A stretch of 64,000 nucleotides of DNA from Salminus brasiliensis (lineage: Eukaryota; Chordata; Actinopteri; Characiformes; Bryconidae). The stretch's first letter is position 1. Each line of letters opens with the position of its first letter. Below are positions 34,140-37,100 of the stretch, in pieces. The stretch spans positions 33,068,769-33,132,768 of the forward strand of contig NC_132888.1 of NCBI RefSeq assembly GCF_030463535.1, read 5' to 3'. A program made the position numbers and the translations under genes. A model generated the notes under the pieces. That model saw only the letters and a list, made by a program, of their open reading frames with translations. It was not told the DNA's origin and ran no database searches.

Positions 34140-37100
34140 CTAATAGCATTTCTTTTGCTTCATGCAGACTTGACAGCGACTGATGATCCTTTGTTTGCAG
34201 TTACTTCTCAGTGTCAGCGGGTCCGGTTTGCTGTTGAACAAAACACAAATAGACCCTATTGCTGATGTCCAGTTAAAAAAGTGCATCTCTATTTCTGTTC
34301 GTTTTTAGTTTTCTCCATCATTTTAACCCTGTAGCTGCTCTGCAAACTGTGTGAATAATTATGGATGGACAGACAAATAGAAGTGCAAAATTACTAGGAA
34401 TAAACACCTAATTTTACATTAACACCCATTCAAAGTTAAGAACATTTTTGCTTCTTCTCCTACAGTAAGTTGGTTTACCTGAACATATAGTTTGGGTCAA
34501 GAGCAGCCAACCAGTAGCTATAAGAATCAGGGTAGAAGTTACAAGTGCCACGACCGTGGCATTCGATAAATGGAACTTTTCGGAAATCCTCCAGGCAGGA
34601 GCCAGGTGAGGACAGTGGCTGTCCTGAGCCCTCTGCACCCACACCGGTTTGCTAGATCCAGGAAAACATACAATACAAAAGCAATCTAAAACATTTTCTG
34701 TAACAAAAACAAATCAATAAAATTATTGCAAAATGAGGCAGTCAACAGGTACAACAGGTAAAACAGGTAAAAGCTGCCACACAGTGACAGTTTCACAGTG
34801 AAAATCAGATGCACTAAATAATTTGTATATCTAACTCTGATGTGAACTATTTTTACATAGCAAACATAGCATACCATCTAAATTAATCTCTTTTAGCAAA
34901 CGATTTATGGGATTCACATGATACTAGAAATGCTACAGGGAACAAAATGAGAAATATAATATGTGCCACAAGATATAATTGAAAAACAGGAACCAAACCA
35001 TGGTCAACTGTTCCAGGATGGGAAAAATGTGGTTATTGGTTAATTTTTAATTATGATTACTTTTTACCAGTACACAGCACAGTGCACCATCTAGGTCCAT
35101 TTGGACTCTTCTATTTGAGATTAGATCATTTCCATCCCAGATTCATACTGGCCCCACTCCTTGATCATCACAGAGCTGTAGCTGCTTTCTGGGTTTATTA
35201 CTATCCACATACACTCACCGAGCACTTTATTAGTTAGGACACAGATACACTCAAATCTTGTTCAAATCTAGATTAAAAAACCTTTTTGCACAAGATTGCG
35301 GTTAATCCACGTTTGTACTGTACCGTTTTCCATGATTATGTAGCCTGCTTAAATACCAACATTGTTCTGTACTCTGATTACAGTTTTTATCATTATAATT
35401 GTAATCTTTAAAAACGGCTTCTTTTACAGGCCCATTTGAAATAAATTGGTTTTAACATGCATGGCAAGAAAACATTTAAATTATGTGTAGCGGTTCATAC
35501 CATGACGAAAGAGTACCCATGCCAAAGAGACATCCAGCCCTTGGGACAGTCTGGAACAACAGTGGTCTGACTGTGTACTGCTATTACATTAGTTTGAGCC
35601 TCACATACTGAACACCTGAAACAAAGTAGAGAGAGAAAACAAAACAGAATGTGAGAATACATTTTTGTTTGTGGGTGCCTGTGTTTGAGCATCAGGGCTG
35701 TTTTGAATCTACCTGCTGACATACTGCTGTAATACATTTCCAGATATCAGACCCAGGTCTGTGGGAATGGATAAGTTGGTGGATAGCCAGTAGGAGTAGT
35801 CATTTCTAGAGGCGTAGCGACAGGTGCTGTCGCTATTGCAGAAAAGGAAGGGCATTGTGGAGAATCTTTGTAGACAGCTTCCCAAAGAGCCTGCAAACAT
35901 ACACATGTATGCATGATGACTTGACCAGACACACACTCATACATAAGCACACTAACAATTCCAGAAAATCCCACAAATGCTTGATCACAGATTTGGGGAA
36001 TTTGGAGGCCAGGGCAACAACTCTTCATCAAACAATGTGTGCAGTGGAGCATTATCCTGCTGAAATAGATCACTGCCATAAAGAGGTGGACCTGGACTTG
36101 CAACAATGTTTAGATAGATGGTACTGCATATGTCAAAGGTCACTTTAAGGGTTGGATAAGGATCAGTGTGGGCACTATGATCTGGGCTTAGCAAAGTTGA
36201 GTAACTGACTGTATGTGGTACGGTAGGGAGTGAACCTCGGTCCTTGAGGGATAGATTCCTGCCCAGCCTCAGCAGTTTATTGCCTTGTGTAGTAGGCGTG
36301 TAAGTGCAGGGAAAACATATATAAAATAATTACTAATTAAAAAAATTGATGTTATATTTATTGATTATTTATTGATATGTTGTATTTTATAAAATTACTG
36401 ATATGCTTTTTGTCTCTACAAAACATGGTAAAATAACTATTTTGGTCAAGCTTTTTGATTCCTGAAATTTGTTTTTGTTTCCTACAGTTTCCTACTTAAA
36501 TGGTTCTGTTTTTAGATTTAGATGTGTTTGAGTGTGGTTCTACAAAACCTTGCCATAGAACCTTTTATAAGGTGGAGGTTATTTTAACTTCAACACACTT
36601 ACAGCTCTTGATGTAACCCAAATATCTTTTCTCTGTGGCTCTGCTTCACAGAAGAATTTAAGAATAAGAATTTTAAGAATATACAGTGGCTCATTCATAT
36701 TTAAAAGCGAATGACATTCTACACAACTGTGTGGGTGTAAATCCCAAACAACAATATTGGGTTAACTATATTGTATGAGGACCAAAAAGAATGAAAAGGT
36801 GTGTCCTCTGAGGTGTGTCCTATGATTATTAACAATGGACCTTATTCAAAAGCTGTTCTTAAGCAGACTTTTCTTTTTAAAACCCACTTGCAGGGTTCAC
36901 AAAGATTTTAACATTCAGCTGTGTTTTCTTATTTGGCATTTGTTCAATTTACAAGGGCAACTGGATCACTGTAACAGCATAGCTGCAAACAATTCTGTGG
37001 GTTTTTCTTTCTTAGCAACAAATTTAAGAAAATTCTACTAAAGATATTATTAAATGAGGCCCCATATTCCCATTAGGAATTTGGTAACATGTCTTTTGTT

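Follow-up and report, generated by a model that had tools for sequence, protein, structure and literature searches.

Loss of the sulfilimine residues Met93 and Lys211 in one of two groups of teleost collagen IV alpha-3 chains

The alpha-3 type collagen IV gene described here has lost both residues of the sulfilimine cross-link, Met93 and Lys211, and belongs to one of two groups of teleost alpha-3 chains; losses of these residues are frequent in its own group and were found in no member of the other. Our comparisons indicate that one teleost alpha-3 copy was probably freed, repeatedly, from the selective need for the sulfilimine lock while its NC1 domain remained under constraint. The presence of two alpha-3/alpha-4 pairs in the genome, the restriction of the loss to one group and the site-specific nature of the release can all be read from the sequences themselves. 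No report of the loss of Met93 or Lys211 in teleost alpha-3 was found in the accessible text of the open-licence literature on sulfilimine, collagen IV NC1 and col4a3.

Background

The sulfilimine bond has been described as a link between two facing collagen IV chains, made by Met93 on one side and hydroxylysine 211 on the other (PMC13098435, PMC6211539), where it clasps the domain-swap hairpins (PMC13098435). It spans the animal kingdom from cnidarians on, is regarded as a critical step in scaffold assembly and has bromide as its cofactor (PMC13098435). Hexamers are reported to assemble before the bond is made and to be chloride-dependent without it (PMC10656227). Because each bond runs from Met93 to the facing Lys211, a chain with neither residue removes the two bonds from the contact that it makes.

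The window gene and its NC1 domain

On its minus strand, the window, that is, the whole 64-kb stretch of DNA that was analysed, has a collagen IV gene of the alpha-3 type with an open frame. Part of this gene was modelled at 34140..62716 (-) with our own exon-chaining script, which uses splice signals and Gly-X-Y runs. The model has 30 predicted Gly-X-Y exons and five NC1 exons, with a frame that stays open over all 35 and encodes 1315 amino acids; it is heuristic and incomplete, in that the 5' end is absent and Gly-X-Y runs near 57.5, 60.2 and 60.4 kb fall outside it. In total, the Gly-X-Y runs extend from 37.4 to 62.7 kb. The helix is an interrupted Gly-X-Y repeat rich in cysteine, with 29 cysteines before NC1 in the modelled chain. 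A remnant of a Tc1-like transposase with a Pfam match lies inside the gene span at 50577-50924 (+), and further remnants were recognized by resemblance at about 51053-51388 (+; no Pfam match) and at 42532-42903 (+).

The five NC1 exons, all on the minus strand, join in frame to give a tail of 254 amino acids that matches PF01413 in two stretches (E 1.4e-84). Exon A (37294..37503) contains the final Gly-X-Y repeats and the start of NC1, exon B (35713..35890) the ASRND motif and the position-93 loop; exon C (35501..35615) is followed by exon D (34479..34651) with the HGRGTCN motif and by exon E (34140..34230), which holds the position-211 loop and ends in the stop codon TAG (34140-34142). The domain consists of two C4 repeats with all 12 canonical cysteines and has 14 cysteines in total. 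The extra, non-canonical ones are Cys214 in the position-211 loop (codon 34197..34199, -) and Cys231 in the sequence KKCY at the C-terminus (codon 34146..34148, -). Among chains in the PDB, the best single-NC1 match was alpha-3 (5nb0, 346 bits), followed by alpha-1 (338) and alpha-5 (335); three fusion constructs with several NC1 domains each score higher in total.

The PDB alignments to the alpha-1, alpha-3 and alpha-5 NC1 domains have no gaps through positions 93 and 211. From these alignments and the spliced exons we could confirm that, as the preliminary description had it, position 93 is Leu (CTG, 35754..35756, -) and position 211 is Arg (AGA, 34206..34208, -). That description was also correct in finding no Met near position 93, as the 11-residue loop of the window is free of Met, and in finding the ASRND and HGRGTCN motifs intact. 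It had stated that all six human chains keep Lys211 and that alpha-1, -3 and -5 keep Met93. In the PDB chains of alpha-1 to alpha-5, position 211 is indeed Lys throughout and position 93 is matched by a Met, which in alpha-2 and alpha-4 (MM) adjoins a two-residue gap. Among the other alpha-1, -3 and -5 rows 80 columns are conserved; the window is changed at only four of these, two of them mildly, and that the remaining two are 93 and 211 is more than chance would give.

Both CTG and AGA are one base from the canonical codon, as might be expected of an error in sequencing, assembly or exon modelling. However, Metynnis, a separate record that is 78.6% identical to the window, has Ser and Thr at 93 and 211, and further records lack both residues, so that an error is exceedingly improbable. 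It is also hardly probable, judging by what the sequences offer in their place, that the bond is formed differently, for example with a shifted Met or Lys. Lys215 does lie four residues past 211 in the window chain (RSNCK), the alpha-5 chain of the same genome keeps Met93 and Lys211, and Met89 persists in some relatives of the window gene, e.g. Metynnis, Electrophorus and Denticeps. Against this, the Met-free window loop offers no substitute for Met93, and with a bond that runs from Met93 to the facing Lys211 (PMC6211539), and alpha-3 described as facing alpha-5 in mammals (PMC8093946), both bonds of the contact would be lost.

Two alpha-3/alpha-4 pairs in the genome

A genome-wide search with PF01413 gave 32 exon matches. 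They belong to eight NC1 genes, all of which were spliced, and these genes are arranged as four divergent pairs. Two are alpha-3/alpha-4 pairs, one on C11, to which the window belongs, and one on C27. The odd chains on C8 and C9 group with alpha-1 and alpha-5 on the tree, and their even partners were named alpha-2 and alpha-6 by linkage. The window col4a3 stands head-to-head with an alpha-4 type gene, beyond which are a rhomboid exon and a one-exon frame of 1127 amino acids with IRS-type PTB and PH domains (Pfam); we take these neighbours to be RHBDD1 and IRS1. Beyond the C27 alpha-4 there is a NYAP-domain gene (NYAP2 or MYO16). RHBDD1 and IRS1 have been described as the neighbours beyond COL4A4, and MYO16 and NYAP2 as adjoining the IRS genes of COL4 blocks (PMC12141075); the accessible text of the same paper makes no mention of two teleost COL4A3/4 pairs.

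The C27 alpha-3 (L014) is 70.7% identical to the window alpha-3 over 225 NC1 positions, and the two genes agree in the lengths of NC1 exons one to four (210, 178, 115 and 173). It differs from the window chain in having Met93 and Lys211, in the loops PMPMDMDLIRG and TVKGPE, and in the absence of the extra NC1 cysteines. The corresponding loops of the C27 alpha-4 are PVPMMPVSG and TLKAAD. Met and Lys are retained in alpha-1, -2, -5 and -6 and in the C27 alpha-3 and alpha-4, and only in the window alpha-3 are both missing.

The C11 alpha-4 keeps Lys211 and the second Met of MM. In its NC1 (L015:3665-3712, 3743-3766 and 4830-4898) the hairpin Cys65 is replaced by Ser, the first Met of MM by Ile and a conserved Arg by Leu; cysteine 71, which we assume to be the partner of the lost Cys65, remains. 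Eight other even chains share 143 columns that do not vary among them; the C11 alpha-4 departs from these at 26 and the C27 alpha-4 at 19. Downstream of col4a3 the window also contains two peptide genes that are presumably of somatostatin type. One lies at 7658-7693 (-), with a signal-peptide exon at 8546-8575 (-), and the other at 26598-26633 (-); the ends of both were read as 14 residues.

Two groups of teleost alpha-3 chains

Relatives were gathered in three protein searches, which gave 180 proteins. Two of the lists comprised the best 120 of 868 and the best 120 of 1184 matches; the full-length search gave 23 proteins, with few new teleost alpha-3 records. The tree was computed from 58 rows, made up of 54 of the 180 proteins and four chains from the genome itself, with the loops around 93 and 211 excluded; these loops were likewise excluded from a first tree of 65 rows. 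The 126 proteins omitted by choice were mostly alpha-1, -2 and -5 chains and additional rows from birds, mammals and invertebrates, part of which were classified. Supports on the 58-row tree were computed with rows P0009, P0144, P0150 and P0021 cut short by trimming, and the trimmed parts of these rows were restored for the counts. It should be noted that the grouping was derived from trees blind to both loops, and that sites 93 and 211 had been fixed by the preliminary description before any statistics were made.

On the 58-row tree, 40 teleost rows join the tetrapod and coelacanth alpha-3 chains with a support of 98/88. Within these, 14 rows, that of the C27 copy among them, make up group X (90/93; 95/94 on the 65-row tree). 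The Synaphobranchus (eel) row falls in group X at 90/93, and a dating of the duplicates to the teleost genome duplication would rest on it. The remaining 26 teleost alpha-3 rows, including the window, are referred to as group Y. They formed no resolved group on the free tree; constraining them together improved the fit slightly, by 2.57 log units, and was not rejected (p-AU 0.627), which is no proof of a clade. Long branches are seen in the Electrophorus, P0150 and P0036 rows.

Two further records touch on this group. The turbot protein P0128, a Y-type collagen NC1 fused to a somatostatin-like peptide, was omitted from the tree as its gene model has no position-93 loop and continues into another gene; the fusion suggests that a neighbourhood like that of the window exists in turbot too. 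P0143 of Collichthys lucidus, annotated as an endothelin-converting enzyme, includes a PF01413 piece that covers a quarter of the query with 81% identity to the window NC1, and may represent the window-type copy in a fused gene model.

Loss of Met93 and Lys211 in group Y

Met93 and Lys211 are both kept in all 14 rows of group X and in two of the 26 rows of group Y (Hucho and Centroberyx). Eight Y rows have Met without Lys, one of which, P0150, has no aligned sequence at 211; in two, Denticeps and Mastacembelus, Lys is present but Met is not, and both show an alignment gap next to the lysine; and 14 have neither, including P0144, which has no sequence at 211, and four rows that are gapped at 93 with no Met in the loop. 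The excess of Lys-only over Met-only losses would fit a loss of Lys before Met in group Y, though the rows are related to each other and their counts are thus not independent. A paired test of the joint loss had three pairs on supported branches, which is too few. The preliminary description had raised the possibility that all non-mammalian alpha-3 chains lack both residues. This is untrue, as both are kept in the C27 copy, in the 13 other teleost rows of group X and in skate, bird and reptile rows.

The two sites also stand out from the rest of the domain. As reference we used 31 rows, namely group X, the tetrapod and skate alpha-3 chains, alpha-1 and alpha-5, with the coelacanth set aside, and the conserved set was defined as the 79 NC1 columns at least 97% identical among these rows. 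Mean conservation of the 79 columns in group Y is 95%. Only two columns fall below 50%, those of Lys211 (4/24) and Met93 (10/22), and the next lowest stands at 14/19. Parsimony gave 11 steps in Y at position 211 and 10 at position 93, compared with a next highest value of 4 and a median of 0. Positions 211 and 93 still lead when four long-branched rows are left out, when the window is left out in addition to these, and when named species only are considered.

In control comparisons, ten of 118 columns fell below half for group X against the other chains, 93 and 211 not being among them, and one of 82 (position 153) for tetrapod and skate alpha-3 against X plus alpha-1 and alpha-5. When group Y was compared with a reference without X rows, thirteen of 118 columns fell below half and positions 211 and 93 ranked tenth and thirteenth; the sharpness of the contrast thus belongs to the comparison that includes X. 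The preliminary description had suggested that cross-linking was relaxed, rather than that one random change had occurred. The site-specific column and parsimony counts support this well, but the loss is not peculiar to the window gene, because it is typical of one of the two teleost alpha-3 groups and came about there through many separate substitutions.

The coelacanth alpha-3 (Latimeria chalumnae, P0041) has Asn93 and Gly211 and is changed at 6 of the 80 conserved columns. With both residues lost in this chain, teleost duplication is not the sole route to such a loss.

Wherever sequence exists, 25 of the 26 Y rows have every canonical cysteine, P0150 being without three, and position 76, the Arg of ASRND, is kept in 23 of 26. 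Some Y proteins lie on contigs that leave no room for introns of ordinary size, an example being P0008, with 359 amino acids on 1204 bases; this points to transcription of Y genes in other fish. Decay of the window copy to a pseudogene, with the two residues lost along with everything else, is very unlikely, given that its frame is open over the 35 predicted exons, that it is changed at just the four of 80 conserved columns, and that the cysteines and the 79-column mean of group Y are so well preserved. Such decay could account for the free variation of the loops around 93 and 211 in Y, for the Ser in place of an NC1 cysteine and the greater number of changed columns (26 of 143, compared with 19 in the C27 copy) in the linked C11 alpha-4, and for the missing cysteines of P0150 and the long branches of Electrophorus, P0150 and P0036. 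An AlphaFold model of P0004, a relative with Leu93 and Arg211, had a mean pLDDT of 56.6 and was unusable.

Candidate substitutes and habitat

Cys214 lies three residues from the lost Lys and might form a disulfide that replaced the sulfilimine, bonding across or within the hexamer either alone or with Cys231. Among the 26 Y rows, of which two lack aligned sequence at 211, it is present in five, namely those of the window, Metynnis, Hucho, Denticeps and Centroberyx; it is absent from all 14 X rows, the 10 other alpha-3 rows and the 8 alpha-1/5 rows. Cys231 occurs only in the window and Metynnis, both of which are without Met93 and Lys211, and comb jellies, which are without both residues, are reported to use a cysteine loop (PMC5395295). 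For the window and Metynnis chains this parallel is appealing. However, Cys214 coexists with Lys211 in Hucho, Centroberyx and Denticeps, and most Y rows without Lys211 have no extra NC1 cysteine, so that it cannot explain the group-wide loss; moreover, Cys214 and Cys231 may pair within one chain. Replacement by a disulfide thus seems unlikely. We would give a similarly small chance to a second, sulfilimine-free alpha-3/alpha-4 network in teleosts, in which an alpha-3 without Met93 and Lys211 would be combined with an alpha-4 without Cys65 and the first Met; the lineage to which the window and Metynnis belong would in addition have a Cys214 disulfide as its lock, paralleling comb jellies.

A cysteine at the junction of helix and NC1 was also considered as a substitute and rejected. 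It is present in P0002, P0003, P0006, P0007 and P0009 of group Y, but also in the X row Fundulus and in one lizard; the five Y rows counted are those whose record includes the true junction, as our script mislabels fragments beginning within NC1. A freshwater or bromide-poor habitat as the cause is unsupported as well: group X keeps both residues in any habitat, Hucho, which we take to be a freshwater fish, keeps both, and the coelacanth, presumably marine, has lost both. The comparison is a qualitative one; the named Y rows are few (12 with the window) and, on our assumption, mostly from fresh water. More cysteines have been described in COL4A3/4 of freshwater fish (PMC12141075).

A proposed explanation and comparison with known systems

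We favour the explanation that the COL4A3/4 pair was duplicated in teleosts, presumably at the teleost genome duplication, and that selection ceased to require the bond between NC1 trimers in one alpha-3 copy, that of the window, but continued to require it in the other. Met93 and Lys211 would then have eroded separately and repeatedly. The window-type NC1 would still fold and trimerise and would probably form hexamers with its presumed partner chains, and the positions held by this chain could not form the bond, which is likely to be absent from the tissue there. From the kept canonical cysteines and position 76 we infer that hexamers form and are uncross-linked at this chain. They would most likely be held by chloride contacts, by the domain swap and by the many disulfides of the alpha-3/alpha-4 helix. 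A large one-exon animal haem peroxidase (E 2.9e-161) was found on C10 (L019:1342-2889, +); we take it to be peroxidasin-like, and the cross-linking enzyme may thus be present.

The window gene shares with COL4A3 the tandem PF01413 domain, the cysteine-rich helix, the divergent pairing with alpha-4 and the rhomboid and IRS-domain neighbours. It differs in the loss of Met93 and Lys211, in its two extra NC1 cysteines and in being one of two copies. Ctenophore collagen IV resembles the window chain in being without Met93 and Lys211 and in having extra cysteines, and its hexamers are reported still to form (PMC5395295). In ctenophores, however, the loss is phylum-wide and the place of the bond is taken by an extra loop with cysteine, 11-13 residues long (PMC5395295), whereas here a single duplicated chain is affected and the other odd chains keep both residues. 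Collagen IV of Hydra is likewise described as having no sulfilimine cross-link (PMC5395295); that is a species-level exception, whereas the loss in the window is specific to a duplicate.

A naturally uncross-linkable alpha-3 beside a normal copy in one animal would amount to a ready-made experiment. With it, the function of the bond in the kidney filter could be studied, as could the questions of whether alpha-3 depends on the bond at all and whether disulfides are able to replace it, with no need for drugs or enzyme knock-outs, which strike all collagen IV chains together.
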